64,000 bases of DNA. Origin: Candidatus Methylacidiphilales bacterium (GTDB lineage Bacteria > Verrucomicrobiota > Verrucomicrobiia > Methylacidiphilales > JAAUTS01). The notes below the pieces were generated by a model that was not told where the DNA came from, did no database searches, and was given only the letters and a program-made list of their open reading frames with translations. Location: assembly GCA_028713655.1 (NCBI GenBank), contig JAQTNW010000007.1, positions 1-64,000 of the forward strand, given 5' to 3'. Shown piece after piece: positions 1,653-32,880 of this stretch; the stretch's first letter is position 1, and the number at the start of each line of letters is the position of its first letter. A program made the position numbers and the translations under genes.

Positions 1653-3359
1653 ATGTCGGTCAACGACAATTACATCCTGCAATTACTTCTCAGCGCCGGG
1701 CTCATCTCACAGGAAGACCTTGCCGGCGCACGGGTTAAGGCTGCAGAGAGGAATAGTAGCGTCAGCGACGCACTTGTTCACTTGGGCATAGTCAGCGAAA
1801 CCGACATCCTTCAAGAAATGGCCAACGAGGCGGGGACCGAATTCGTCCCCACGATCGAGCACGTCGAAGAAAACGCGATTGTATTGCTTCAAAAAGCCCA
1901 GGCCAAACGTTACAGGGTAGTACCGCTGTCACGTGTCGGCCAATCACTCCGGATCGCCATTTCTGACCCTCTGGATTTTGAAACGCTGGACGCCTTGCGC
2001 CACATCGTCAAACTGGACATCGAGCCCATCGTTGTGCCGCCCGCTGAAATTGACAAAGCCATCGCCCGCTATTACGGGGCGACAGACGAATCCGTGGAAT
2101 CGCTCATCAACAGCTACGGCGACCTGGAGTTGGATGTCAAAACAGACACCAGCGCAACAGCCGCGGAAACCGAATCAGCGGAAGGCGATGCTCCGATCAT
2201 CAAAATGGTTTATGGAGTGATCCTGGACGCCTACCGCCTCAAGGCGAGCGACATTCACCTCGAGCCCTTGGAAAAGCGTTTCCGCTTGCGCTATCGCATG
2301 GATGGCGTGCTGCAGGAAATGCGCGATCCTCCAAAACGGCTGCAGTCCACCATCGTCAGCCGCGTGAAAATCATGTCGAACATGAGCATTGCGGAAAAGC
2401 GCCTCCCGCAGGACGGACGTATCGCACTTGCCATGCAGGACGGCAGCAGTGTGGACCTTCGTGTTTCGAGCATCCCCACGGTTCACGGCGAGTCCATCGT
2501 CATGCGTATTTTGGACAAAACCGGACTGACTCTTGGCCTGCCGCAGTTGGGATTTTTTGCCGATGACCAGGCCACGATGGAAAAAATCCTCGGATTTGCG
2601 GACGGGATATTCCTGGTGACCGGGCCCACCGGCTCGGGCAAATCAACCACCTTGTACGCCTGCCTCAACACCCTGAACAAACCGGACCGAAAAATCATCA
2701 CGGTGGAAGACCCGGTGGAATACGAGCTGCCCGGCATCAACCAGGTGCAGGTTCATGAGGACACGGGCATGACTTTCGCGGCTGCGCTGCGGGCCATGCT
2801 GCGTCAGGCCCCCAACATCATCATGGTCGGGGAAATTCGAGACGCGGAAACAGCCACCATCGCCATTAATGCCTCCCTCACCGGGCACCTCGTCTTCAGC
2901 ACCCTGCACACCAATGACGCGCCAAGCGCGGTCACCCGGCTGATTGACATCGGCGTCAAGCCCTTCCTGGTTTCCTCATCCGTACGGGCGGTCATGGCCC
3001 AGCGCCTGGTGCGGAAGCTGTGCAAAAACTGCTCGCAGCCCAGCATGCCGACCGACGAGGAGTTGCGCGCGCTGAATTTGAATGTTTCACAAATTGCAGA
3101 AGCTAATTTCAGGCATGGCCACGGTTGCGACACTTGCCGCGGCACCGGCTACAAGGGCCGTGGAGGCATCTTTGAAATCTTCATCGTGGATGACGAAATC
3201 CGCACCTTGATCAACGAACAGGCTGGAGTCTCCCAGGTTCGCCAGCGCGCGCGCGACCTGGGCATGAGAACCCTGCGCGAAGACGGGGTCCGCAAAGTCG
3301 TGGCCGGCGCCACCACAGCGGAGGAAATCATCGCCGCCACCATGGGAGACAAAGACTGA
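1653..3359 (+). CDS. PilB/GspE-family type IV pilus or type II secretion ATPase, copy 1
   Basis: 568 residues. The N-terminal third is an MshEN/GSPII_E-type domain, followed by the hexameric ATPase core. Walker A is GPTGSGKS near residue 324, the His-box region reads STLHTNDAPSAVTRLID, and a zinc tetracysteine is formed by CKNC near 456 and CDTC near 492. This class of cytoplasmic ATPase powers pilin polymerisation or type II secretion. The stretch usually written RQDPD just before Walker B reads RQAPN here, while VGEIRD is intact. A second homologue starts 1 base after the stop and a pilC-type gene follows that, so this is an assembly operon. Pilins, PilT and the secretin are not in the window, so pilus versus secretion cannot be decided. 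Confidence 0.93.
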   Translation: MSVNDNYILQLLLSAGLISQEDLAGARVKAAERNSSVSDALVHLGIVSETDILQEMANEAGTEFVPTIEHVEENAIVLLQKAQAKRYRVVPLSRVGQSLRIAISDPLDFETLDALRHIVKLDIEPIVVPPAEIDKAIARYYGATDESVESLINSYGDLELDVKTDTSATAAETESAEGDAPIIKMVYGVILDAYRLKASDIHLEPLEKRFRLRYRMDGVLQEMRDPPKRLQSTIVSRVKIMSNMSIAEKRLPQDGRIALAMQDGSSVDLRVSSIPTVHGESIVMRILDKTGLTLGLPQLGFFADDQATMEKILGFADGIFLVTGPTGSGKSTTLYACLNTLNKPDRKIITVEDPVEYELPGINQVQVHEDTGMTFAAALRAMLRQAPNIIMVGEIRDAETATIAINASLTGHLVFSTLHTNDAPSAVTRLIDIGVKPFLVSSSVRAVMAQRLVRKLCKNCSQPSMPTDEELRALNLNVSQIAEANFRHGHGCDTCRGTGYKGRGGIFEIFIVDDEIRTLINEQAGVSQVRQRARDLGMRTLREDGVRKVVAGATTAEEIIAATMGDKD

Positions 3360-3360
3360 C

Positions 3361-5043
3361 ATGGATACCCGGCTGCTGCTTTCATTCCTGCGCGAGCAGG
3401 GAATCATCCGCGACGAACAGGCCACCGACCTGCTCGAAGAGGCGGAACGTACCGGCAAACCCATCGAACAAGTCATCGCCAACTTCGGCATCCTGACAGA
3501 AGAAGAATTGATGCAGCGGATCGCCGCCAGCATGGGATTGCAGTACGTCGATCTTTCGCAGGCCAACTTCACCCCGGAACTGCTCAGTTGCATTTCCCCG
3601 CAAACCGCGCGCTTGCACGGGGCGCTGCCGGTGGCCGTCACCCCCCAATCCATCACTGTCGCCCTCAAGGACCCGCTGAACTCGCAAACGCTGGATGACC
3701 TGCGCTGGGCCGCCAATAAGGACATCCAGATCGTGTTGGCCCCACTGACGCAAATCGACAACCTGATCGCCCAGTATTACGGGACCGAACAGGGATCGGT
3801 CGATGAGCTGCTTTCACAGTTGGCGGGCGAAGCCCAGTCCGCCTCGGACACAAGCCTGGACGAACTGGGATTAAGCTCGGCGGCCAGCAGCGCGCCCATC
3901 GTCAAATATGTCAACACCATCATCGCCAAGGCGATTCAGGCGCAGGCGAGCGATGTCCATTTTGAGCCGTTTGAAAAGGAATTCAAAATCCGCTACCGCG
4001 TTGACGGCTCCCTTTACGAAATGGCCCCGCCTCCCAAGCGGCTGGCGCTTCCTGTCATCTCCCGCATCAAGGTCATGGCCTCGCTCAACATCGCGGAGCG
4101 GCGAATCCCCCAGGATGGACGCATTCAGACCAGCATGGCCGGCAGGCAGGTGGACCTCCGCGTCTCCACACTCCCAACCCAGCACGGTGAAAGCGTCGTG
4201 CTCCGCGTGCTGGACAGAAGCGTAGTCAATCTCGATCTCGCAAGCCTCGGGATGCCGGACCACCTCTACAAATACATCGTCGAAACCGTCAACAAACCCC
4301 ACGGAATTTTCATCGTCACGGGACCCACGGGCTCCGGAAAAACGACAACGCTGTATTCCTGCATCAAGGAAATCAACACGATCGATACGAAGATCCTCAC
4401 CGTGGAAGATCCTGTGGAATATGAACTGGAAGGCATCCAGCAAGTCCAGGTGCAGGAAAGCATCGGCTTGACCTTCGCCCGCTCCCTGCGCGCCTTTCTC
4501 CGTCAGGACCCGGACCGCATCCTCGTCGGCGAAACACGCGACCTGGAAACGGCCCAAATCGCCATCCAATCCTCCCTCACGGGGCATTTGGTACTCACCA
4601 GCTTGCACACCAACGATGCGCCCGGCGCGATCACCCGGCTCATTGATATGGGTGTGGAACCCTTCCTGATTGCCGCCACGCTTGAAGGCGTGCTCGGACA
4701 GCGCCTGATCCGCAAAATCTGCCCGAAATGCAAGACGCCCTACGAACCAACGGAAAGCGTTCTTGCACAAATCGGCCTCACCGCCCATGATGTGGGCGAC
4801 AAAGCGTTCTATTATGGAGCTGGCTGCGAGAATTGCAATCAAACCGGATACAAGGGCCGGAAGGGAATTTATGAACTGCTGGACATTCGCGAACCCATCC
4901 GCCAACTCATCACCGGCAAAGCTCCGACGGTTGTCATCCGCCAAAAAGCCATCGAGCTCGGCATGGTCACCCTCAGACAGGACGGCCTCAGAAGCATTTT
5001 TGACGGACAGACGTCGATCGAAGAAATCCTAAAATATACCTAA
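3361..5043 (+). CDS. PilB/GspE-family type IV pilus or type II secretion ATPase, copy 2
   Basis: 560 residues with the same architecture as its upstream neighbour: an N-terminal MshEN-like region, then Walker A GPTGSGKT near residue 320, RQDPDRILVGETRD around Walker B, SLHTNDAPGAITRLIDMG, and two zinc CxxC pairs (CPKC near 453, CENC near 488) before the YKGRKGIYELL stretch. It keeps the canonical RQDPD that copy 1 has lost. The start codon lies 1 base after the preceding stop, so translation is probably coupled. The two proteins are clearly paralogous but diverged, which points to an old duplication with possible division of labour rather than a recent copy. Confidence 0.93.
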   Translation: MDTRLLLSFLREQGIIRDEQATDLLEEAERTGKPIEQVIANFGILTEEELMQRIAASMGLQYVDLSQANFTPELLSCISPQTARLHGALPVAVTPQSITVALKDPLNSQTLDDLRWAANKDIQIVLAPLTQIDNLIAQYYGTEQGSVDELLSQLAGEAQSASDTSLDELGLSSAASSAPIVKYVNTIIAKAIQAQASDVHFEPFEKEFKIRYRVDGSLYEMAPPPKRLALPVISRIKVMASLNIAERRIPQDGRIQTSMAGRQVDLRVSTLPTQHGESVVLRVLDRSVVNLDLASLGMPDHLYKYIVETVNKPHGIFIVTGPTGSGKTTTLYSCIKEINTIDTKILTVEDPVEYELEGIQQVQVQESIGLTFARSLRAFLRQDPDRILVGETRDLETAQIAIQSSLTGHLVLTSLHTNDAPGAITRLIDMGVEPFLIAATLEGVLGQRLIRKICPKCKTPYEPTESVLAQIGLTAHDVGDKAFYYGAGCENCNQTGYKGRKGIYELLDIREPIRQLITGKAPTVVIRQKAIELGMVTLRQDGLRSIFDGQTSIEEILKYT

Positions 5044-6557: not shown

Positions 6558-9500
6558 TCAACTGCCTTTTGTCTTCGCCAGTCCGGGACTCCGCCAGAGC
6601 AGATAAATCACCGGATACAATAAAAGCTCCAGAATGGCCGAGGTCACAACCCCGCCGACCATCGGCGTGGCAATGCGCTTCATCACGTCCGCTCCGGTGC
6701 CCGTGCTCCACAAAATCGGCAGCAAACCGAACAAAATCGCGCAGACCGTCATCATCTTGGGCCGGATGCGCTGCACCGCCCCTTCCCGGATCGCAGCTAT
6801 AAGATCCGATTGCGAATTCATCCGGCCCTGCGCCTTGTGCTCGTCGTACGCCTGGTCCAGATAAAGCAGCATGACCACCCCGGTCTCCGCATCAATGCCC
6901 GCCAGCGCAATCAGCCCGACAGCCACCGCCACGCTCATGTTGTAGCCAAGGAGATACAACAACCAAAAAGCGCCAATCAACGAAAAAGGCACTGCCAAAA
7001 AGACAATCCCGGTCCGTATCAGGGAACGGGTGTTCATATAGATCAGAATGAAAATAATCAGCAGTGTGAACGGCACGATCAGCATCAGGCGTTCCTTGGC
7101 GCGCAGGAAATATTCAAACGAGCCCGCCCATTCCATGAAATAGCCCGTCGGGAATTTGACTTTTTCACGGATTTGCTCCGCTGCTTTTTGTACAAAACCC
7201 ACCATGTCAGACGCCGTCGTATCCACAAACACAAAGCCGACCAACTGGCCGTTTTCACTGCGCACTTCCGGAGGACCGAAGGTGTAGCGAATGTCGGCAA
7301 CTTCAGACAACGGAATTTGCGCGCCTTGCGGCGTGCCGACCAAAATACGGCCCAGCGCCGAAATATCATCCCGATAATCGCGCGCATAACGCACGGCCAC
7401 CGGGTAGCGTTCCCGCCCCTCGACCGTCCGGGTGATCGTGCTGCCGCCCACCGCCATCTCCAGCACATCATTGATGTCCTCCACCCTGAGCCCATAACGG
7501 GCCAGGGCCTCACGCTTGACAGTGACATCCAGATAGCGCCCACCCAACGCCCGTTCCGCAAAAACGCTTCGCACATCCGGAAAACCGGTCAAAGCCTGTT
7601 CGATCTCTTCACCGACAGCGTTGATTTGTCCAAGATCCTTCCCATAAATCTTGATCCCCAGATTGGAACGAAACCCCGTGGTCAGCATCTGGGTCCGGGT
7701 CTGGATCGGCATCCAAAACACATTGGCTAGGCCCGGTAATTTCAACTTTTCATTCATCTCCGCAATCAGCTTTTCCCAGGTCATGCCCGCAGGCCATTCC
7801 TCCTTCGGTTTGAGCTGGATCGTGGTCTCGAACATCGACAGCGGCGCTGGATCGGTGGCCGTCTCCGCCTGGCCTGCCTTGCCAAAGGCTGATTTTACCT
7901 CTGGGAATTCCATGATCATCCGGTCTTGCACGTTCAGGACACGCGAGACTTCGCTGATGGCCATGCCCGGGGTCGCGGTCGGCATGAAAAGAATGGTGCC
8001 TTCGTTCAGGGGCGGCATGAACTCGGAACCCAATTTCAAAACCGGATACGCGGTCGTGCCCAATATGACAAGCGCCAGCAAAAGCACCGGCCAACGGAAT
8101 TTCAAAACCAATTCCACCAGGGGCTTGTAAATCCAAATCAGAAAACGGTTGACCGGATTTTTCGCCTCGGGCGCGATTTTACCCCGGATGAACCAGAGCA
8201 TCAGCACCGGGACCAGAGTCACCGACAGCAGCGCCGCGAAGAACATCGAAAACGTCTTGGTAAACGCCAGCGGCTGGAACAGACGGCCCTCCTGAGCCTC
8301 CAGCGTGAAGACCGGGATAAACGAAACTGTGATCACCAGCAGCGAGAAAAACAGGGGCCGCCCCACTTTCATGGCCGCTTCCAAAATGACCTGTGTGCGA
8401 TGCTCGCCGCTGGGATCGACCCCTCCGGCAGCTTCGCGCGCCTTTTCCAGGTGTTTGTGCGCGTTTTCAATCATGATGATCGCCGCGTCAATCATGGCCC
8501 CGATGGCGATGGCAATGCCGCCGAGCGACATGATATTCGCCGTAAGATTCAAGTGCTGAAAGGGTATGAAAGACAACACAATCGCCACCGGCAGCATGAC
8601 AATCGCCACCATGGAACTTCTGAAGTGCCAGAGGAACAGAATGCAAACCAGGGCGACAATCACGCATTCCTCGATCAGCTTTTCACGGAGCGTATCGATC
8701 GACTTCTCGATCAGTTCGGAGCGGTCATAGACCGGAACAACCTTCACACCCGGAGGCAGCGCAGGTTCCAGATCCTTGAGCTTCTTTTTGACGCCGTTGA
8801 TGACATTGAGGGCGTTTTCCCCATACCGCATCACGATGACTCCGCCGACTGTTTCCCCCCGCCCATTGTAGTCCGCCACACCCTGGCGCATCTCGGCCCC
8901 AAACGACACCGTGCCCAGATGTTTGATCAGGATTGGATCTCCGGTACTGTCGGTTTTGACCGCGACATGCTCAATATCCTCAAGGGATTTGAAATAACCG
9001 CGGCCCCGGATGTAAAACTCCGTCGTCGCCACCTCAAACGTCTTGCCTCCCACGTCGCGGTTGCTTTTTTGCACCGCTTCGACCACTTCCTGAATCGTCA
9101 CCTTGTGGCTCAGAAGCGCATTGGGATCGAGGTTGATCTGGTACTGCTTGACATAACCTCCTACTGTCGCAACTTCGGAAACGCCCTTGACCGAGCCCAG
9201 CGCGTAACGCAACGTCCAGTCCTGGAATGTGCGGAGCTGAGCGAGATCGTTTTTGCCCGATTCATCCACCAACGCGTATTCGTACACCCACCCGACACCG
9301 GTGGCGTCCGGGCCGATGGTCGGATTCACCCCCTCAGGCAGCGTGCCGCGCACCGAATTCAAGTATTCGATGACCCGCGACCGCGCCCAATAAATGTCCG
9401 TCCCGTCCTCAAAAATCACATAGACGAAGGATTTTCCAAAAATCGATTCCCCACGCACAAACTTGACCTTGGGCGCCGAGATGAATTTGCTCGAGATGGG

Positions 9501-13902: not shown

Positions 13903-14532
13903 TTATTTTTTCTCAAACAGCTTCAAATATTTCCCGTACCCCTGCTTTTCCATCTCTTCAACCGGGACAAACTTCAACGACCCGGAATTGATGCAATACC
14001 GCAGGCCGGTCGGCGCGGGGCCGTCGTCAAACAAATGCCCCAGATGGCTGTCCGCTTTTTGGGACCGCACTTCGACCCGGATCATGCCGAGGGTGCTGTC
14101 CTTCTTCTCAACAATAGATTCCTTCTCAATCGGCTTGGTAAAACTCGGCCAGCCCGTGCCCGAATCGAATTTGTCCGTCGAACTGAACAGTGGCTCACCG
14201 GAAACGATATCGACATAAATCCCCGCCTTGTGGTTGTTCCAATAGGCATTTTCAAACGGGCGTTCCGTGCCGTTCTGTTTGACAATCCGGTATTGTTCCG
14301 GAGTCAACAGCTTCCGCAATTCCTCATCGGAACTGGGAAGGCTGCATACGGTCGTACATTTTTTTGAGGTGTCTGGTTTCATGGTTGGGTCCGGAGTTTT
14401 AGACGGGTTGTCCGCCGCCGCAAGGGCAACAAACGCCGTAAAAAAAAGCGGCAGACAGACGAGCGGTTTGACGTTCAAATGTTTCACAAAAATACGAGCG
14501 GCCAACCCGCTCAATATTCCAATATAGACCAC
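13903..14532 (-). CDS. msrB: Peptide-methionine (R)-S-oxide reductase MsrB, exported form
   Basis: 209 residues: a hydrophobic N-terminal leader, a Thr/Lys linker, then the MsrB domain with [26 protein letters not shown] and the catalytic cysteine in [13 protein letters not shown]. MsrB reduces methionine-R-sulfoxide in oxidised proteins; the leader places it in the envelope. The CxxC zinc pairs of zinc-type MsrB are absent ([11 protein letters not shown] in place of the Cys-containing version). The true start may be a GTG 15 codons downstream, where the leader looks more typical ([16 protein letters not shown]). Two extra cysteines in the linker (KKCTTVCSL) could act as resolving residues. 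Confidence 0.92.
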
Positions 14533-14621: not shown

Positions 14622-14921
14622 TTAATTTCTCTTCTTCAATTCTGATCGTATCCACAAAGGAGAACGTCGCATGTCAAGAACTGCATACACCTGAGCTATC
14701 TCGCCTTCGACCTCGTAGTAAATTCCGAATGGAAACCGCTTCGACAGCATCCGATAAAATCCAAAATGCACATGATGAATTCCGGCATAGAGAACCAGAG
14801 AATCTAAATCCGAAAGTAGCGACTCGATAAAATATTCTCCGATCCCAGGTTCCCGCGCTTCGTAAAATCGGCGTCCCGCTTCAAGATCAATCGCCGCATC
14901 TTCGAGGACGATGACGGTCAT
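14622..14921 (-). CDS. RelE/ParE-family toxin
   Basis: 99 residues with the ParE/RelE layout: an N-terminal helical AAIDLEAGRRFYEAREPGIGEYF, a middle LLSDLDSLVLYAGIH, and strands FPFGIYYEVEGEIAQVYAVLDMRRSP ending the fold. The start ATG overlaps the antitoxin stop by ATGA, the usual order for this module. ParE-family toxins poison gyrase or cleave mRNA; which applies here cannot be told. It lies just outside the clear cassette array at 15.9-20.5 kb, on the same strand. Confidence 0.85.
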   Translation of the reverse strand: MTVIVLEDAAIDLEAGRRFYEAREPGIGEYFIESLLSDLDSLVLYAGIHHVHFGFYRMLSKRFPFGIYYEVEGEIAQVYAVLDMRRSPLWIRSELKKRN

Positions 14922-15136
14922 AAAACCGCTGTACGTAAACGGCTTTTGAGCTGCTCCAGTGTCAAAAACTTCGCTTCACCGCTGTCCGCCCGAGCCTTTC
15001 TGTCCGCCAGTACGTCTTGATGCCAGTCTGGAGAAGTCATGTCCTCCGTATCGTGACACAGAGCATCCCAAAGCTGCTCCATCGCCTGCAAGCGCTCGGT
15101 CACAGACATTTTGTTGATTTGAGCTATCTCGATCAT
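14918..15136 (-). CDS. Addiction-module antitoxin component (RelB/StbD-like small helical protein)
   Basis: 72 residues of the putative addiction-module-component family: INKMSVTERLQAMEQLWDALCHD, then SPDWHQDVLADRKARADSGEAKFLTLEQLKSRLR. This pattern (helix, W-x-x-x-L, SPDWH-x-x-VL) is the usual partner of ParE-type toxins and the gene overlaps the toxin by ATGA. It should neutralise the toxin and may autoregulate. No operator was identified upstream. Confidence 0.85.
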   Translation of the reverse strand: MIEIAQINKMSVTERLQAMEQLWDALCHDTEDMTSPDWHQDVLADRKARADSGEAKFLTLEQLKSRLRTAVL

Positions 15137-15548
15137 GTGCTGATTCTACAATGCCCAAATGGAAATCGCAAGGGCCGCGTTTGTCCTGTACCGTCCGTGG
15201 TCAGAAGCCTGGAGCACATGGCACCCGAGGTCGCCGCGTCGGGCCTTGGGCATGGCTCTGTTCTTCCTCGTCATACATGGCGAAAAGGGCTTCCGAAGCG
15301 CCAACCATCGCCAGATGCTCCTCGATCCAGGCCAGCAACTCGCGATAATCCGCTGGCGGAAGCTTTTCGATGTATCCATGCGTTGTGTTGCGTGAGAAGC
15401 AATGTCCACGCGCCGCGGAACGCGAACACAAAGCCTTGCAGACGGCGACGTATTGAAAAGGCGGGCATATGTTGAGTCAAGATGCTTCGTTAGCCGACGA
15501 GCGTAGCGAGGTTGCTGGACAAACTTGGTTTGGACATCGTTTTGATTC
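15137..15548. other. Gene-poor segment with a possible antitoxin-like remnant
   Basis: No complete gene is convincing. On the minus strand, 15201-15431 encodes a protein-like patch (IEKLPPADYRELLAWIEEHL, then SEALFAMYDEEE) inside otherwise composition-driven sequence. It resembles part of a small antitoxin without a credible start or partner toxin, so it may be a remnant of a decayed cassette. GTTAGCC occurs at 15489-15495, but no matching arm of an attC-like fold was found. Confidence 0.3.
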
Positions 15549-15893
15549 TCATTGTATGGTTGCGAAGCATGCCATAAGCAAAAGCGCATATAAAGTGTAG
15601 AACGCGGTCAGAGCTAATCCCCAGGACTGAAAATAAATTTGTTTTTGTAGGGTCGGAACAAAAGCAGACGCAATGAAAAGGCCGAAGAGAATGATGGCTA
15701 GATAAGGAATGAATGAGCCCATGTTACGGGCAAAAAGCAGATGAGCCGGGAGCAAACCCGGGGAGCCTGAATATACTGGACGAAAATGCTCAACATACCC
15801 CGGTAGCCAAGTAACACTGGGATAGGCCGTGATACACAGAAGCAATGATGCCGTTAAATACCAAAAACTAGGTCTGGCGATTGGGTGCTTCAT
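15549..15893 (-). CDS. Small multipass membrane protein, cassette-borne
   Basis: 114 residues with three or four hydrophobic segments (FWYLTASLLLCITAYPSV, FIPYLAIILFGLFIASAFV, WGLALTAFYTLYALLLMACF). No family recognised. It lies downstream (minus sense) of attC-like site 1 with its start about 6 bases from it, as expected for a cassette gene. Its own 3' attC was not clearly resolved, so this may be the degraded end of the array. The function is unknown. Confidence 0.65.
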   Translation of the reverse strand: MKHPIARPSFWYLTASLLLCITAYPSVTWLPGYVEHFRPVYSGSPGLLPAHLLFARNMGSFIPYLAIILFGLFIASAFVPTLQKQIYFQSWGLALTAFYTLYALLLMACFATIQ

Positions 15894-15898
15894 TTGTA

Positions 15899-16071
15899 TT
15901 CAACGCTAAGCTCACCCACGGCTCTCTGGAAGCGGCGGCTGGCAGCAAAACGGGGCAAGGCGAAGGCGCGGAGGCTGCGGAATCAGCATCCGTGACTGAG
16001 CCGGTGGAATTACGGCCGCGCTTTTAAACGACCCGCCCGGAGAGCTGCTTGTATGTAGCGTATGGTTCGGT
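15899..16071 (-). repeat. attC-like site 1
   Basis: Left core-like TTCAACG (15899-15905) and right core-like GTTCGGT (16065-16071). The outer arms pair imperfectly: GCTAAGCTCACCCACGGCTC on the left against the complement of CCGGAGAGCTGC and TGTAGCGTATGG on the right. The centre is long and GC-rich. Translated on the minus strand the right half reads NHTLHTSSSPGG, similar to translations of sites 3 and 4, showing common descent of the sites. Confidence 0.65.
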
Positions 16072-16075
16072 GTTT

Positions 16076-16432
16076 TCATTGTACTTGTATTGGGTAAATC
16101 CTCATCGGCAACCACGGTAACGCCATGGAAAAAAGAAAAATGGCAACAAACATTAAGGTAGTGATAAGAGTCAGAACGCACAAGGCTGTCCATGTGGACT
16201 CTACGCTCCTGCATCTTGCCGTGGCATAGATCGCGAACAGAACAAAAATAACGGGGAACAGATATGGCCAGACTGTCGGAGGATAAAATAAGGTTGAAAT
16301 CACCGGCAACGGTTTTCCGCCAGTTAATTTAGCTAACGGGTAATCAAGCCAACGCGACAGTGCGAAAAGAAAGAATGACACCACACCACTACCAGCAATC
16401 GTGATCCATCCAGTAATAATACGCGTGATCAT
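16076..16432 (-). CDS. Small multipass membrane protein, cassette-borne
   Basis: 118 residues from the ATG at 16432: MITRIITGWITIAGSGVVSFF, WPYLFPVIFVLFAIYATARC and ALCVLTLITTLMFVAIFLFSMALPWLP give at least three membrane segments. A longer upstream reading is possible but would run through attC-like site 2, so the internal ATG is preferred. The stop lies 4 bases from the core of site 1. No family recognised. It is a single-gene cassette bounded by sites 1 and 2. Confidence 0.7.
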   Translation of the reverse strand: MITRIITGWITIAGSGVVSFFLFALSRWLDYPLAKLTGGKPLPVISTLFYPPTVWPYLFPVIFVLFAIYATARCRSVESTWTALCVLTLITTLMFVAIFLFSMALPWLPMRIYPIQVQ

Positions 16433-16439
16433 TTGTTTT

Positions 16440-16498
16440 TCACCGTCCGCCATCACTCGCGCCGCATAGCGGCGTTGAGTGGATGGCATGGTTAGCTG
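16440..16498 (-). repeat. attC-like site 2 (compact, about 60 bases)
   Basis: A compact imperfect palindrome: GCCATCACTCGCGCCGC on the left faces GCGGCG then TTGAGTGGATGGC on the right across a 3-base ATA loop, followed by the core GTTAGCT. The left arm starts in TTCACCGTCC. Length and fold match a canonical short attC. The stop codon TAA of the gene at 16492 overlaps the GTTAG core, a common cassette feature. Confidence 0.7.
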
Positions 16499-17148
16499 TT
16501 TTTCTTTTGGTAAGAGATAAAATCATCAAAGATTTTGGTGACATCTTTTAATGGTTTCTTTTCCAGGTCGCTTTTCTCTGAGTAATCCTTGGTTTGGATA
16601 AATCCAACTTTGGTCTCTACGTCATACTCCCCCAGTGCCTGATCAAGCATGAGAAAGGCAATGCCGTGATACGTCTTCTCGTGTTCAGCCCTATATCCAC
16701 GAATAAAGAGGGTAAGACCAGCTTTGCTTCCGTCGGGTTCTACTGTGCAAAACACATCATCGGCCTTCAACTTTACGCCACCATACTCAATGTCCATCGG
16801 TGATCTGCGCGGACGGAACTTGATCCATATCCAATGATCCAACTTCGGTGCTGCGGCATAAAGCCGCTCTACAGCAGGAAAAGCATCCTTTATCCCGTCG
16901 GCACTGATTACGAATTCTCGCTTTCCTTCCGTGACGGGGCCGAATTCAAAAGTAAGGGAAGGATTAACTTTTTTCATCTCCGCCGCAAGGCGGTTAAATG
17001 TCTTTTCCTGATCCTTTTCAAAATTGAACAGCATCCCATCATTTTTGCTAAACCAACTCCAAAAATCCTGTTCCGGCGCAGCTTTGCTCTTTGAGGTGAA
17101 TAGGGAGAAGATCATAAGTGTGAGGGCAATACGTAAAATCAGGTTCAT
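16492..17148 (-). CDS. Secreted protein of unknown function, cassette-borne
   Basis: 218 residues with a signal peptide (NLILRIALTLMIFSLFTSKSKA) and a mature globular domain (PEQDFWSWFSKNDGMLFNFE, LTFEFGPVTEGKREFVISAD, KLDHWIWIKFRPRR, KVGFIQTKDYSE). It is AT-richer than the genes outside the array, a sign of foreign origin. The opening pattern FWxWF followed by a region on EFGP and FVISADG recalls small DUF695-adjacent or immunity-like secreted proteins, but I cannot assign a family with confidence. The stop overlaps attC-like site 2. Confidence 0.75.
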   Translation of the reverse strand: MNLILRIALTLMIFSLFTSKSKAAPEQDFWSWFSKNDGMLFNFEKDQEKTFNRLAAEMKKVNPSLTFEFGPVTEGKREFVISADGIKDAFPAVERLYAAAPKLDHWIWIKFRPRRSPMDIEYGGVKLKADDVFCTVEPDGSKAGLTLFIRGYRAEHEKTYHGIAFLMLDQALGEYDVETKVGFIQTKDYSEKSDLEKKPLKDVTKIFDDFISYQKKNS

Positions 17149-17156
17149 TTGTTTCA

Positions 17157-17300
17157 GCTAACGCCAAGCTCACCTACTGCTCTCTGGAACCGGAAGGTGA
17201 ATGCAGGTTGATTGTTTAGTCATGGTGAGCTTTTTACAACGACCCGCGCGGAGACGGTAACCCGCCGGGAGAGCCGTTGGTGTGTAGCGTATGGTTAGAC
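17157..17300 (-). repeat. attC-like site 3
   Basis: Left core GCTAACG (17157-17163) and right core GTTAGAC (17294-17300), both close to the RYYYAAC/GTTRRRY integron consensus. The outer arms pair: AAGCTCACCTACTGCTCTC on the left with the complement of GAGAGCCGTTGG and TGTAGCGTATG on the right. The minus-strand translation NHTLHTNGSPGG resembles that of site 1. The spacer is 144 bases overall. Confidence 0.75.
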
Positions 17301-17756
17301 GTTTTGCATAATATACTTTCGACCCTCGCCAGAAATCGCAGACATCGGAGGTTGCTCTCCAAATGGAGACGACACACCGAAACAGGTTTGTTGTATGAGT
17401 CCACGCTGGAGCAGCGTGTCTGTATGATAATCGGCAACGCCCATCGGAAGCTGAAATCGCCGCATAATGTCTTGTGTGGAAAGATTGCACGATTGATCGA
17501 AGAAGAACTTGAGTATCTCAAGTGCTTTGGGATCGAGTGCGTTCACGACTGGTTGCAGTTGTGCTATCTTCGCATCGCGGTCTGCTACAAGATTCTCAAG
17601 CTCAATCACGCGATGCGACAAACGCGCATTCTCACTGATCGCATCTCGCAACTTGAGATCAAGTGTCGTGAGTTGTTCTTTAGTGAGGGCAATCCGCTGA
17701 TCCTTGATTGCTCCAGCGGCAATGTCACCGATAATTCCTTTGATGGAGTCGAACAT
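17295..17756 (-). CDS. Coiled-coil protein with predicted winged-helix C terminus, cassette-borne
   Basis: 153 residues. The N-terminal part is amphipathic (MFDSIKGIIGDIAAGAI), a coiled coil spans about residues 25-65 (LTTLDLKLRDAISENARL, VIELENLVADRDAKIAQL), and the C-terminal half looks like a small winged helix (ALEILKFFFDQSCNLSTQDI, GVADYHTDTLLQRGLI, ISGEGRKYIMQ). That layout suggests a DNA-binding or phage-type accessory protein, but no named family was recognised. The stop TAA lies in the GTTAG core of attC-like site 3. Confidence 0.75.
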   Translation of the reverse strand: MFDSIKGIIGDIAAGAIKDQRIALTKEQLTTLDLKLRDAISENARLSHRVIELENLVADRDAKIAQLQPVVNALDPKALEILKFFFDQSCNLSTQDIMRRFQLPMGVADYHTDTLLQRGLIQQTCFGVSSPFGEQPPMSAISGEGRKYIMQNV

Positions 17757-17773
17757 GGTATTGTTATTTCTTC

Positions 17774-17833
17774 GTCAACGTTCAAGATGAGCCACGGCCG
17801 CTCGGGGCCGTTGGCTCTGGCGTATGGTTAGCA
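17774..17833 (-). repeat. attC-like site 4 (compact, 60 bases)
   Basis: Left core GTCAACG (17774-17780), right core GTTAGCA (17827-17833). Arms: GATGAGCCACGGCC on the left against GGCCGTTGGCTC on the right with a short CGCTCGG loop, leaving a few unpaired bases as in true attC sites. The secreted-protein gene at 17782 reads right through it. Confidence 0.75.
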
Positions 17834-18321
17834 CTTTCTTTGAACTCGATGAACTTCTCAAAGTCGCGAAAAACCACGTCCTGCTCTGGATCTTTCTCGG
17901 CGGAAGACACACCGAGCATGTAGACCTTTCCTTCCGCAATCACGCAGTACTGCTTCAACGCGCATCTCTTCCCGGCAATCGTCGCGACAATCTTAGAAAA
18001 TCCAAATCTCTTCCCGTTTATTTCTTTGATGCCACCGCCATCCACCTTTTCGGCTTTCTTCTCGAACCCGGTTCTCCATTTGGGAACATACTCTTCTAGA
18101 CTCTTCGAGTCGGGTGGGAGAGGAAGCGATATCAACGTGATACCAGTGGTGTTTGGTCCGTTACTCCAAGCCTTGATCTCAACATTTCCAGGCATGCGAT
18201 CTTGCATGCGAATGCCCCATCCTGGTTCCTTGGGAACAGCGAAAGACAACTGCCCGACGACCTCCGCAGAGGCTGAATAGACAAATACGCAGGCGAGAAT
18301 GAGGCAGTGGATTGTTTTCAT
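17782..18321 (-). CDS. Secreted protein of unknown function with attC-encoded tail, cassette-borne
   Basis: 179 residues with a signal peptide (KTIHCLILACVFVYSASA) and a mature domain including GQLSFAVPKEPGWGIRMQDR, SLEEYVPKWRTGFEKKAEK, INGKRFGFSKIVATIAGKRC and VYMLGVSSAEKDPEQDVVF. The domain looks like a small lipoprotein-type or DUF1795-like fold, which is a guess. The last 16 or so residues (NHTPEPTAPSGRGSS) are encoded by attC-like site 4 rather than by the original gene, so the native stop was lost or is absent. Confidence 0.75.
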   Translation of the reverse strand: MKTIHCLILACVFVYSASAEVVGQLSFAVPKEPGWGIRMQDRMPGNVEIKAWSNGPNTTGITLISLPLPPDSKSLEEYVPKWRTGFEKKAEKVDGGGIKEINGKRFGFSKIVATIAGKRCALKQYCVIAEGKVYMLGVSSAEKDPEQDVVFRDFEKFIEFKESANHTPEPTAPSGRGSS

Positions 18322-18326
18322 CTTTG

Positions 18327-18434
18327 GCTAACAGTTTTATTCACCTGCCGGTCGGTTTTACCCCCTGTTATCCGACCGGTCGCATAACAGGGGGTAAAAC
18401 CGACATGTAGGCATAATCGTGTTGTTGGTTGACG
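18327..18434 (-). repeat. attC-like site 5 with a 21-bp perfect inner stem
   Basis: Left core GCTAACA (18327-18333), right core-like GTTGACG (18428-18434). The inner arms 18351-18371 and 18384-18404 are perfectly complementary over 21 bases (left arm begins GTCGGTTTTACC) around a 12-base loop that is itself self-complementary (GACCGGTC). The outer arms pair weakly. It is nearly identical to site 9, and the similarity continues for about 110 bases beyond the core. Confidence 0.6.
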
Positions 18435-18544
18435 CTCAGTGAAGCATTTCACTGGAGGGTTTTCAAGTTTTAAGCGTGAGAGCGGTCAGCTTTCGGCTTT
18501 CAGTTCTCAGCTGTCCGCAAAAAAAGCGGCGTCGTGCCGCCGCA
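18330..18544. repeat. 215-bp duplicated segment, copy A (partner at 20383-20597)
   Basis: Bases 18330-18544 and 20383-20597 align without gaps over 215 bases with about seven mismatches by eye. The unit holds an attC-like fold followed by about 110 bases ending in GCGGCGTCGTGCCGCCGCA, a phrase that also occurs in opposite orientation near 32720-32750. No gene lies in copy A or in the rest of 18435-18575, so this is effectively a gene-less cassette. Confidence 0.85.
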
Positions 18545-18575
18545 CAAAACATATATTCGGAGACAAAAAGCTACT

Positions 18576-18676
18576 TGCTTAGTCAGCCTTCAGGAACAGC
18601 CGGTTCCTGCTCTGCAGGAAACATGACGGAGCGAAGAGACGGCGTGTAGGCTGTTACCTGGATGGCCTAGTTAGCC
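18576..18676 (-). repeat. attC-like site 6
   Basis: Right core GTTAGCC (18670-18676), left core-like TGCTTAG (18576-18582), a poor match to consensus. The arms TCAGCCTTCAGGAACAGCC and the complement of GGCTGTTACCTGGATGGCC pair well. The centre contains CGGTTCCTGC and GCAGGAAAC that also pair. The ParE-like toxin gene stops 5 bases beyond the core. Confidence 0.65.
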
Positions 18677-18680
18677 CTTC

Positions 18681-18956
18681 CTACTTCTTGATCTTATCGT
18701 ATTCGTCGTGCTGACCTATCCAAATCCATAGACATCCTTCTGGCACTTCAGCAGCCAATGCGCGATGACCCAATCCGATTCTGACTGACCAAACTTGCCC
18801 CACCTTTTTGAATTGCAGTGATGGGTGCCTTGGATTTGCCTTCAAAAACTGAAAGCAACGATCAGCGTTTCGCTGGATTTCTGGAGGAAGCTGTCGATAG
18901 TGAAACCAGTAACTACTGCTCGCCTTATGCTTAAATGTCTGAGGATTGCCCTGCAC
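18681..18956 (-). CDS. RelE/ParE-family toxin, cassette-borne
   Basis: 91 residues: SSSYWFHYRQLPPEIQRNAD, FLKANPRHPSLQFKKVGQVW, SVRIGLGHRALAAEVPEGCL and IWIGQHDEYDKI. The NPRHPSL and G-x-RALA patterns followed by W-I-G-x-H-D-EY are typical of a ParE/RelE subgroup often written as a toxin-antitoxin RelE/ParE protein. It overlaps its antitoxin by 26 bases. Toxin-antitoxin pairs are well known passengers of chromosomal integron arrays, where they stabilise neighbouring cassettes. Confidence 0.85.
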   Translation of the reverse strand: MQGNPQTFKHKASSSYWFHYRQLPPEIQRNADRCFQFLKANPRHPSLQFKKVGQVWSVRIGLGHRALAAEVPEGCLWIWIGQHDEYDKIKK

Positions 18957-19128
18957 GATGTTCCTCTAACGCCTTTGAAATAAAACTGTCCAAGCGGCCA
19001 GAATTAGAGTCTGCTTCGATCTCCTTATCCCATTGCTCCATATCAAAGTCAGTGAACCACTTACGAAAAGTTTTTAATTCGTCATTCGTAAAGTGGGTCA
19101 CAGCATGTTCAACTTCTTGCACGCTCAT
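18931..19128 (-). CDS. Small antitoxin partner of the ParE-like toxin, cassette-borne
   Basis: 65 residues from the ATG at 19128: MSVQEVEHAVTHFTNDELKT, FRKWFTDFDMEQWDKEIEAD, SNSGRLDSFISKALEEHRAG. The FRKWF-x-x-FD-x-x-x-WD-x-x-IE-x-D-x-x-x-GRLD signature is a common short antitoxin type preceding ParE/RelE toxins. An upstream TTG at 19185 would add 19 residues but lies within 11 bases of the attC core, so the ATG is preferred. It precedes and overlaps the toxin. Confidence 0.85.
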   Translation of the reverse strand: MSVQEVEHAVTHFTNDELKTFRKWFTDFDMEQWDKEIEADSNSGRLDSFISKALEEHRAGQSSDI

Positions 19129-19173
19129 AGGCAAAGGATAATTGAAAAACTTTTCTTTTGCAATTTTTTTTGG

Positions 19174-19344
19174 GCTTACGTCCAAGGTCAGCTACGGTCT
19201 CCCGGAAACTGCGCATGAATGCAAGCCGCGGCAGCGAAGGCACGGCGACTGCGGAAGCAGTCGCCGTGACTGAGCGCCAAGCTAAATCGGAACTTCGCAC
19301 AACGACCAGCGCGGGAGGATGATAGCTGCTCCGTCTTGTTAGAA
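19174..19344 (-). repeat. attC-like site 7
   Basis: Left core-like GCTTACG (19174-19180), right core GTTAGAA (19338-19344). Arms: GGTCAGCTACGGTCTCCCGG against the complement of CGCGGGAGGATGATAGCTGC. The centre contains a perfect 12-bp hairpin, CACGGCGACTGC with GCAGTCGCCGTG around a 4-base loop (GGAA). Confidence 0.7.
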
Positions 19345-19347
19345 GAT

Positions 19348-19674
19348 TCATTTTCCATGACTCACTCTAATAATTTTTCCGTCATCCTTTGCAATTTCAG
19401 CAATGGCAACTCCGCCAATGGTATTCTCTGGCAATGATCCTTCCACTATCCAAATGTTGTTGCTTCCAAGTTTCGCTTTGTACGGCTTCTCGCCTGCAAT
19501 CTGCTTCTCACCATAAATTGGTTCCCAGACAGCAACTGCGATTTTGATAGCAGTCTTTGCGTCCGGAACATATCCATCATTTGGTTTGTAGTTGTGTTTT
19601 GCGGTCTCACCAGCAAATGCGCAAATGTTCGCGAGTATAATTGCACTAACAACAGTAAAAGTTTTGGTGGTCAT
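19348..19674 (-). CDS. NTF2-fold immunity-like secreted protein, cassette-borne
   Basis: 108 residues with a signal peptide (TTKTFTVVSAIILANICAFA). The mature part GYVPDAKTAIKIAVAVWEPI, YGEKQIAGEKPYKAKLGSNN, IWIVEGSLPENTIGGVAIAE and IAKDDGKIIRVSHGK is the compact NTF2-fold immunity-protein domain found as YbbC/YhhH and in polymorphic-toxin loci. Those proteins neutralise a cognate effector. No effector gene is present nearby, so here it would be an orphan, possibly acquired for defence against a neighbour's toxin (inference). Confidence 0.8.
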   Translation of the reverse strand: MTTKTFTVVSAIILANICAFAGETAKHNYKPNDGYVPDAKTAIKIAVAVWEPIYGEKQIAGEKPYKAKLGSNNIWIVEGSLPENTIGGVAIAEIAKDDGKIIRVSHGK

Positions 19675-19687
19675 GGTTGCTGGAATC

Positions 19688-19809
19688 TTCTAAAACGCAA
19701 AGCGCAGCCGCAGCCGGGGAGCGGCAGGTGGCAGCACGTAAGATGTTTAGCTATGGTAGCCATGGAACTAAAGGCCGCGTGGGCTGTCGGCTGGCGCGTC
19801 TGGTTCGGT
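19688..19809 (-). repeat. attC-like site 8
   Basis: Left core-like TTCTAAA (19688-19694) and right core-like GTTCGGT (19803-19809). Arms ACGCAAAGCGCAGCCGCAGCC and the complement of GGCTGTCGGCTGGCGCGTC pair imperfectly. The cores are weaker than those of sites 2-4. The DUF4262 gene at 19768 reads into its right half. Confidence 0.6.
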
Positions 19810-20373
19810 GTTTGTTTCGCTTTCCATGGGCTCCAGTGTTTGGATTTGTCTGGCGCGTGGATCACAGGCTGGCTCCCACGGATAATAACCGTTTTTGTCT
19901 GGCCAGCAAAGTTGCAAGACCGGAAATTTATGAGCGGCAACGGCAGGTGCCTTGAAGAGTAAGGAGCGGTAAAACCAACACCCGTATCCCAGATAATCGA
20001 AGTATCGCTCTTGGGGCACTGGTCTTGCCTTGAATTGGACTTCGCCTCTCCCTAGATCGTAGCGAATGGAATGTTGGTCAGCAACGGAATGACCAGTCTC
20101 CACATAGCTAAATAAATCATTCATCATGTTACCAATGTTCGTGATCCCCATGACAAGAAACTCTGCGTGGCCAAGATTGAGATAGAACCCTATGGAATAA
20201 CAGTAGTCGTATGGAAGATCAGGATTTGTGTCATCAGGGGTGATCTGCAGGACCGAACAGCCGTGTGTCGTGATGTCACGAAATATCGATAAATCGCGTG
20301 AATCCTGAGGCTCTTGCCAGACAAAGCCTGGAATTCTTGGCGATGTCACTGAGTTCTTATATCGCGCATCCAT
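19768..20373 (-). CDS. DUF4262-domain protein with attC-encoded tail, cassette-borne
   Basis: 201 residues from the ATG at 20373 (MDARYKNSV). The segment YDYCYSIGFYLNLGHAEFLV followed by MGITNIGNMMNDLFSYVETG is the DUF4262 hallmark; the family has no established activity. CWPDKNGYYPW closes the domain. The last 14 residues (NTEPDAPADSPRGL) are read from attC-like site 8. A longer reading to 20505 would run through site 9 and is rejected as the native start. Confidence 0.8.
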   Translation of the reverse strand: MDARYKNSVTSPRIPGFVWQEPQDSRDLSIFRDITTHGCSVLQITPDDTNPDLPYDYCYSIGFYLNLGHAEFLVMGITNIGNMMNDLFSYVETGHSVADQHSIRYDLGRGEVQFKARPVPQERYFDYLGYGCWFYRSLLFKAPAVAAHKFPVLQLCWPDKNGYYPWEPACDPRARQIQTLEPMESETNTEPDAPADSPRGL

Positions 20374-20379
20374 ATTCCA

Positions 20380-20487
20380 CCGAACAGTTTTATTCTCCTG
20401 CCGGTCGGTTTTACCCCCTGTTATCCGACCGGTCGCATAACAGGGGGTAAAACCGACATGTAGGCATAATCGTGTTGTTGGTTGACG
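20380..20487 (-). repeat. attC-like site 9, twin of site 5
   Basis: Left core-like CCGAACA (20380-20386), right core-like GTTGACG (20481-20487), 108 bases as in site 5, with the same pair of 21-bp perfect inner arms. It is the 5'-most site of the array on the minus strand. An integrase or attI would be expected beyond it, at higher coordinates, but the next gene is dinB. Confidence 0.6.
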
Positions 20488-20597
20488 CTCAGTGAAGCAT
20501 TTCACTGGAGGATTTTCAAGTTTTAAGCGTGAGAGCGGTCAGCTTTCGGCATTCAGCTCTCAGCCGTCCACAGAAAAAGCGGCGTCGTGCCGCCGCA
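20383..20597. repeat. 215-bp duplicated segment, copy B (partner at 18330-18544)
   Basis: Same unit as copy A, here at the platform-proximal edge of the array and running out into ordinary intergenic repeats. The shared 110 bases beyond the core suggest that array-edge DNA was copied inward to form the gene-less unit at 18435-18575, or the reverse. Confidence 0.85.
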
Positions 20598-20982: not shown

Positions 20983-22206
20983 CTAATCCCCTTCCGTTTC
21001 CAGATCGGGTATCCGGTTGAACGCAATCCGCAGCGGCGCCGATTCCAGCGCCTCGTGCGCCCCGCCGAAATAAACGGCGTTTTTCCCGAATTTTTCGTTC
21101 AAGGAATCCACCGCTTTGTTAAGCGAATTCTTCCGCCCGGCGGCTTTCACAAACAGCGACGGCGTAAAATTGCCGCGATGCACCAATCGGGACAGGACAA
21201 CCCCCACCGCGATGGGCGCCGCAGACGGCCGTCCGCGCTTTTCCCAAAGCTGCTTCATCAGGCGCAGTAATTCCAGCGAGTCGTCCGTTTCCGTGATATG
21301 AATCTCGTCGTTCCAGCGCTTGTCCCCGGAATATTTGACCGTCAGCGACAACCCGCCAGCCAGGTATTCCATTTTCCGCAATCGCATCGCGGCTTTTTGC
21401 AGGAGCCGGTTCAGGACGGCAAAGGCGTCGGCGTTGTTGCGCTCCTCCGGAGGCAGCACATGCGAATGGCCGACCGAGCGGTGCTCCGTTTCCCGATCCG
21501 GCACGACCCTGCCCCGCAGCAATTCATACATCCTTTCGCCCTCGATGCTTCCCCATGCGGCATGAAGCGCATTCCGGCTGGCGGTACACATATCCTTGAC
21601 CGTGCAAATCCCGTGCTCGCGGAGCCGGCGCTCCATGTTTTCGCCAATGCCGCAAAAGTCCCGCAATTCGAGCCGGTAGAGGCAATCCGGCAGGTCCTTT
21701 TCCTCAATCACCACCAGGCCGTCGGGCTTTTGCATGTCGGAGGCTGTCTTGGCCAGAAAGGTGTTCGGGGCAATGCCGATCGAACAACGGAGCGCCGGGC
21801 CGATTTGTTTGGAAATGCTTTCCTTGATCTGCCGGGCCAGCGCCAGAGCCTCCTCGCGCTTCTGCCAGCGGCCTGTCAGTTCGCAGTCCATTTCGTCAAT
21901 CGACAATACCCGGCTGACGTGCATGCAGGATTCGACCATGTCCACAAGTTTCCTGTGGTATTCCACATAAAGCGACGGGCGCGCCTCGATGATCTTCAAG
22001 CCGGGGCACAGTTTTTTGGCGTCGCCGACCCTCGTGCCCGTCTTGACGCCGAATCGCTTGGCCTCGTAGCTGGCGGCGATGCAGCAGGTCGTATCGGCCA
22101 GCACCGGCACCACAGCCACGGGTTTGCCCCTCAGCCGGGGCTGGAGGTGCTGCTCCACCGAGGCGAAGTAGGAGTTGAAATCAACAAATAAGGATCGTAA
22201 CGGCAT
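20983..22206 (-). CDS. dinB: Y-family DNA polymerase (DinB/Pol IV-like)
   Basis: 407 residues. The polymerase opens with SLFVDFNSYFASVEQ (catalytic D9) and carries SIDEMD at 102-107 (D104, E105 metal ligands), followed by CSIGIAPNTFLAKTASDMQK and the LRDFCGIGENMERRL helix-hairpin-helix thumb. The C-terminal little-finger domain includes TEHRSVGHSHVLPPE. It performs error-prone translesion synthesis. SIDEMD in place of the usual SIDEAFLD is seen in a DinB-like subgroup. The gene is bracketed by inverted repeats. No LexA box was identified upstream. Confidence 0.92.
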   Translation of the reverse strand: MPLRSLFVDFNSYFASVEQHLQPRLRGKPVAVVPVLADTTCCIAASYEAKRFGVKTGTRVGDAKKLCPGLKIIEARPSLYVEYHRKLVDMVESCMHVSRVLSIDEMDCELTGRWQKREEALALARQIKESISKQIGPALRCSIGIAPNTFLAKTASDMQKPDGLVVIEEKDLPDCLYRLELRDFCGIGENMERRLREHGICTVKDMCTASRNALHAAWGSIEGERMYELLRGRVVPDRETEHRSVGHSHVLPPEERNNADAFAVLNRLLQKAAMRLRKMEYLAGGLSLTVKYSGDKRWNDEIHITETDDSLELLRLMKQLWEKRGRPSAAPIAVGVVLSRLVHRGNFTPSLFVKAAGRKNSLNKAVDSLNEKFGKNAVYFGGAHEALESAPLRIAFNRIPDLETEGD

Positions 22207-32561: not shown

Positions 32562-32880
32562 TTTTTACAGGAAGGACACGAAGGAACGCAAAGGAACCAA
32601 AAAGACTTAAACATGAATCTTAACCACTGATATCGCGGATAATACGGATGAGGAACTTACTCAAACTCCATCTCTTCGAAACCAGCATATTGATTAACCG
32701 CTGATGTACGCGGTTTTTTGGACTGCGGCGGCACGACGCCGCTTTTTCTGCGGGCGACAGGTCGTTAATACACATGCAAAGCGTCCGTCGCGGCGGACGC
32801 ACTCCAAAGTCCGCTGCGCGGACATCTGACAGCCGACTGCTGAAAGCTGACAGCGCCAGGGACTTAACACTGGGATTTCG
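32562..32880. other. Intergenic repeats, no gene
   Basis: Contains AGGAAGGACACGAAGGAACG (32570-32589), the phrase ACTGATATCGCGGATAATAC (32626-32645) and TGCGGCGGCACGACGCCGC (32724-32742), the reverse form of the end of the 215-bp unit at 18.3 and 20.4 kb. GTCCGTCGCGGCGGACGC (32781-32798) is a short palindrome. No protein-like frame. Confidence 0.6.

Follow-up and report, generated by a model that had tools for sequence, protein, structure and literature searches.

Two tandem gene cassette arrays with attI-like heads and no local integrase in a Candidatus Methylacidiphilales draft genome

Principal Finding

The locus at 15484-20597 of the window, by which we mean the whole analyzed stretch of 64,000 nucleotides, holds a genuine series of about eight mobile gene cassettes, which is flanked by two ordinary genes and lacks a recombinase gene of its own. 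The window is part of contig C7 of a draft genome (MAG) of 3.29 Mb in 90 contigs. According to the reading that we prefer, at a probability of roughly 0.55, the locus consists of two tandem arrays without a local integrase, i.e., CALINs by position, each with an attI-like head, which would derive from one integron and may still be served by it in trans. Integron integrases (IntI) exchange folded single-stranded attC hairpins with an attI site. In the proposed mechanism, the heads would be present or former attI sites at which cassettes have been inserted at the G/TT position of ACTGTT, the loci would have arisen when an integron platform was copied and its intI subsequently lost, and the IntI encoded on contig C30 of the same genome could still insert or excise cassettes at the window locus.

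Setting and Layout of the Locus

All small ORFs of the locus are encoded on the minus strand, with imperfect inverted repeats carrying integron-like cores between them, and in each cassette the attC site comes after one small gene or a pair of genes. The two heads in tandem define two arrays, the first running from 20383 to 18580 with three cassettes and the second from 18330 to 15484 with five, as listed below in array order between the flanking genes (all on the minus strand).

20983-22206, minus: dinB, flanking gene for a Y-family polymerase (PF00817, 132 bits)
20383-20597, minus: head 1, attI-like; core AATAAAACTG followed by TTCGG at 20381-20394, near-palindromic hairpin, terminator hairpin at 20579-20596
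19768-20373, minus: cassette 1 gene, DUF4262 protein of 201 aa (PF14081, 70 bits, cut-off 28), stop inside its own attC
19692-19809, minus: attC of cassette 1; fold with 21 outer-arm pairs, extrahelical T and G at the canonical places
19348-19674, minus: cassette 2 gene, NTF2-fold immunity protein family Imm-NTF2-2 (PF15631, 83 bits, cut-off 26)
19176-19344, minus: attC of cassette 2, long class; 73% identity to part of the C43 array
18681-19185, minus: cassette 3, two overlapping ORFs (18931-19185 and 18681-18956), possible ParE-like toxin with putative partner
18580-18677, minus: attC of cassette 3, with which the first array ends; two extrahelical bases, relatives on C44 and C43
18330-18544, minus: head 2, attI-like, second copy; core AATAAAACTG followed by TTAGC at 18328-18341, terminator at 18526-18543
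17782-18321, minus: cassette 4 gene, 179 aa, no family
17775-17833, minus: attC of cassette 4, canonical short site matched by both covariance models
17295-17756, minus: cassette 5 gene, coiled coil and HTH-like C-terminus (PF09339, 18.1 bits, below the cut-off of 22)
17158-17300, minus: attC of cassette 5, long class; C44, C23, C26 and C7 carry further copies of its arms at 83-89%
16492-17148, minus: cassette 6 gene, 218 aa, no family
16440-16497, minus: attC of cassette 6, canonical short site with degenerate R' core, matched by both models; fold z -4.5
16076-16432, minus: cassette 7 gene, 118 aa, hydrophobic and thus probably a small membrane protein
15900-16071, minus: attC of cassette 7, long class; 91% over 172 nt to C26:460-631
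15549-15893, minus: cassette 8 gene, 114 aa, likewise hydrophobic and probably a small membrane protein
15484-15546, minus: degenerate distal attC; 33 nt at 91% to an attC of the C30 integron
13903-14487, minus: msrB, flanking gene (PF01641, 168 bits), start placed by comparison with the relative G003

The sequence-only reading had described one-directional small genes, inverted repeats with GTT-side and AAC-side cores, and gene stops within or beside the sites, all of which are borne out. Its nine attC sites between 15899 and 20487 have been reduced to seven and a relic: 18330-18435 and 20383-20488 belong to the attI-like heads, and the distal end has moved outward to the degenerate site. Its estimate of eight or more cassettes is approximately correct: seven have an attC and one ends in the relic. 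The AT-richer composition that it noted stands with respect to the regions beyond dinB (54-59% GC) and at 12.0-13.0 kb (58%), the array having 47-49%, but not with respect to 13-15 kb, which is also at 49-51%. Profile searches of the cassette proteins have mostly returned no family, and the toxin call for cassette 3 is weak (PF24732, 21.5 bits, under the cut-off of 24.4, E 2.4e-4).

No TIGR02249 match for an integron integrase has been found on contig C7, and the locus is therefore not a complete integron in cis. In the relative G003, the gene order is CarB-DinB-MsrB and the dinB stop overlaps the likely msrB start; both C7 flanks follow this order, with the array filling the dinB/msrB junction. 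Consequently, the array (about 6.5 kb together with a RelBE-like pair) either interrupts a probable operon or was lost from G003, the one relative in which the empty junction has been seen. The RelBE-like addiction pair (14622-15136, minus strand; antitoxin PF09720, 52 bits) is located between the array and msrB and may represent a decayed ninth cassette. The conserved flanks also bear on the very remote chance of an assembly artefact, in which pieces of one large integron would have been misjoined to C7. The genome is a draft MAG in which the arrays on C30, C26, C43, C44 and C61 extend to the ends of their contigs, and some of these may indeed belong together, but the C7 array is internal to its contig with its flanks in G003 order, and those on C22 and C23 are internal as well.

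Identity of the attC Sites

The sequence-only reading had proposed covariance models as a check of the attC sites, and these single out the two short ones. Model R1 was built from 20 attC sites, all outside the window, of the C30 integron and of intI-bearing arrays of four relatives; loops were trimmed, seven rows were shortened by one or two spacer bases to stay in register, and one site of the first attC alignment was omitted from the second. The R1 alignment has a stem with two unpaired bases in the 3' arm, which is the hallmark of attC, and a covariation of 0.37 vs 0.13 in shuffled controls, and the model of alignment A2 has bulges at columns 42 and 49. Applied to the 64-kb window, R1 matches 17775-17833 with 34.3 bits (E 2.7e-7) and 16440-16497 with 25.3 bits (E 8e-5), the next best match having 10.2 bits. 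Model R2, trained on sites from the genome's other arrays, scores the former at 39.6 bits and the latter at 47.4 bits, the latter value being raised by a C23 site in the training set that is an 81% copy of 16434-16497. At least two attC sites are matched by covariance models not trained on the window, and with no integrase gene nearby the locus is, by position, a CALIN as defined in PMC9024848.

Further support has been obtained from folding, which the sequence-only reading had also put forward: extrahelical bases on one arm of the bottom-strand hairpin occur in the sites at 16440, 17775, 18580 and 19692, but the long sites at 15900 and 17158 are not convincing by this measure alone. Among seven genomes of the family, attC matches are found only in the two with intI (22 and 60), and the five genomes without intI have none at E<=0.01. 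A gathering-threshold Rfam scan returned only tRNAs and nothing of attC type, and a strict DNA pattern for attC had no match genome-wide. Exact scans for RYYYAAC/GTTRRRY have been set aside as too unspecific on their own, as have scans for outer-arm pairing, since equal pairing is reached elsewhere in the window.

Once a cassette is integrated, the bases directly after the G/TT position should match the complement of R'' of the cassette's own downstream attC, at a distance of hundreds of bases. The cassette starts in the window fit their own R'' better than shuffled pairings (permutation 4/20000), the fit being weak for cassettes 7 and 8. The start of cassette 1, GTTCGGTG, matches R'' of its own attC, and that of cassette 2, TTAGAAGATTC, does so over 11 nt after a 2-nt insertion.

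Neither R1 nor R2 matches any of the long-loop sites, and their folding taken alone is weak (15896-16073, z -1.0; 17153-17305, z -0.9), so that their support consists of homology and cassette-boundary matches. Copies of window sites in other arrays of the genome have 69-91% identity. The site at 15900-16071 recurs at 91% on C26, where the copy lies between two attC sites confirmed by covariance model, at 83-91% on C44, and also on C23; 18578-18680 has relatives at 69-73% and 19172-19349 one at 73% on C44/C43, the attC of cassette 3 being 69% identical to the model-confirmed attC C44:28469-28569 and 73% to its C43 relative. Because such copies recur in several arrays (C26, C44, C43, C23), the long class is best regarded as a genuine subtype of attC in this genome, in agreement with the variant proposed in the sequence-only reading. 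At the distal site 15484-15546, a folding signal is absent.

A Complete Integron and Other Arrays in the Genome

The array had been called integrase-less, and so it is with respect to its surroundings, but the genome contains a complete integron on contig C30, with a full intI of 457 codons (424 bits, cut-off 265), an attI site and a divergent array; this is the only complete intI of the genome. Further attC model matches cluster on C61, C43, C44, C26, C23 and C22; C3 and C6 have one site each. The search for an integrase gene and for same-arm sites elsewhere in the genome, which had been suggested from the sequence, has thus yielded both.

On C26, the last 21 codons of an intI gene persist, whose DNA is 88% identical to the C30 gene, and a head is located 234 bp from this 3' remnant in the same orientation as on C30. 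Judged from these pieces, the C26 array looks like an integron after integrase loss.

Several peculiarities of the integron loci may be recorded here. The C30 integrase (2786-4159) carries a ~130-residue N-terminal extension ahead of the usual core-binding domain, and similar long-form integron integrases occur in several proteobacterial and Desulfobacterota MAGs. Within the complete integron, a cassette end with its attC is duplicated (892-1140 and 2092-2340), and positions 1-1600 of C26 hold a near-exactly repeated cassette with attC along with the head and the intI 3' remnant. One relative (G082), a single contig of 4.3 Mb, has three near-equal full-length integron integrases at three places.

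The attI-Like Heads

The two window heads are 97% identical over 215 bp, and head 1 shares 75-76% identity with C76:2478-2696. Both contain a long hairpin, and their core is AACAGT in place of AACG; the terminator located upstream would insulate each array from dinB and from the preceding array, respectively. Heads end in ACTGTT immediately before the cassette start, and the similarity between them stops at GTT, beyond which different cassettes follow; the first cassette ORF begins 9 nt after the GTT of head 1, and across the genome this distance is usually 4-20 nt. The pattern AAYAAWACTGTTNG has 10 exact matches in the genome vs 0 for the reversed control. One of them, C5:79264, falls within an apparent coding region and has been discarded as a chance match. 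In total there are ten heads, including a diverged copy on C23, which form related, mosaic subtypes conserved over 110-215 bp, several of them at unlinked loci. They are dispersed in the genome, and most begin a cassette or small array; the ORFs that follow the heads on C2, C28 and C76 have no recognizable attC.

By position, i.e., before the first cassette and with a G/TT insertion core, the heads are placed as attI sites are. Cassette starts match the first attC that follows them at eight places, the genuine attI of C30 among them (8/50000 permutations). The core shared with the C30 attI is ATACTGTT; only the last 8-10 bases are alike, and no BLAST match exists over the rest. Beside the window heads, no convincing intI remnants have been found, and a promoter scan of the heads gave no sigma-70-like promoter above shuffled sequences. 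Thirteen other genomes have been searched for heads, with a single match in three and none in the rest; no relative tested carries a comparable set.

The strong hairpin and the GTT/AAC-like cores at both ends of 18330 and 20383 might also indicate long-stem attC sites of cassettes without an ORF, in line with the sequence-only count. We regard this as quite improbable, and have dropped attC identity for both elements, as R'/R'' matching fails: 18435-18580 contains no cassette start matching the R'' of the site (score 2.0 vs an off-diagonal mean of 2.6), neither element is matched by a covariance model, and no cassette lies beyond the far side of the 20383 copy.

An ordinary CALIN, i.e., an integron fragment that has moved or been left behind with no working head, would treat the 215-bp repeats as co-copied leader or terminator sequence. 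CALINs remote from the intI locus are common, as in Xanthomonas (PMC12444791), attC subtypes are common to several arrays here, and terminators of the same sequence are scattered over the genome; the repeats, however, end exactly at the crossover point, where differing cassette starts follow, and several head subtypes occur at unlinked loci, which renders this account rather unlikely. An entry of cassettes at generic chromosomal attG sites, from which arrays then grew, would account for dispersed CALINs in a genome with an intact-looking intI. It is nevertheless improbable, as the heads are conserved over 110-215 bp, unlike attG insertions, which are broad and little site-specific as far as the account of Loot et al. 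(2024) in PMC12444791 goes.

Two further observations concern head-associated sequences. The terminator hairpin GCGGCGGCACGACGCCGC occurs at more than 15 places in the genome, e.g., at 18526-18543, 20579-20596 and 32724-32753 of the window. On C67 (6899-7920), a head is followed by a small cassette ORF, an attC-like site and an ORF that by eye resembles a VOC-family protein, and a further attC model match of 31 bits is found at 7798-7922.

Relation to Known Systems and Significance

With at least two attC sites, one-directional cassettes and no adjacent intI, the locus resembles known CALINs, which are thought to originate from integrase loss or translocation (PMC11389934) and which a functional IntI can mobilize in trans (PMC12444791). 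It differs from them in that each array starts with a conserved attI-like head, with two heads in tandem, and in that an intI with the same attC family is present elsewhere in its genome. To sedentary chromosomal integrons it is linked by the intI, attI and divergent array on C30 and by the common attC family, but the parts of the platform are dispersed here, with one intI and about ten heads. Sites derived from attI are known inside arrays of mobile integrons (PMC12901181), and the Delta-attI-type gene cassettes described there share with the window an attI-derived site that brackets cassettes; in contrast, the elements found here are conserved over 110-215 bp and, in a non-clinical MAG, stand at the beginning of arrays at many places in the chromosome. 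With attG insertions, as far as PMC12444791 reports them, the window shares cassettes outside integrons in an IntI-bearing genome, whereas the conserved heads are not generic sites. Apart from those of class 1 integrons, attI sites have been poorly described (PMC9024848). A small search of the integron literature has turned up no account of a single genome with many conserved heads.

The usual view of CALINs is that they are leftovers, and a genome with one intI and many conserved heads could show how they originate, with the C26 remnant looking like an intermediate in which the platform has been copied and the integrase lost. It also makes the use of several docking sites in one chromosome by an integrase in trans directly testable. 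A bolder and more tentative idea, which we consider possible rather than probable, is that of a distributed integron, in which one integrase would serve attI-like docking sites dispersed over about ten places, and any of these could take up cassettes and start its own array. If true, cassette capture, and perhaps expression, could take place at many chromosomal loci of this bacterium.
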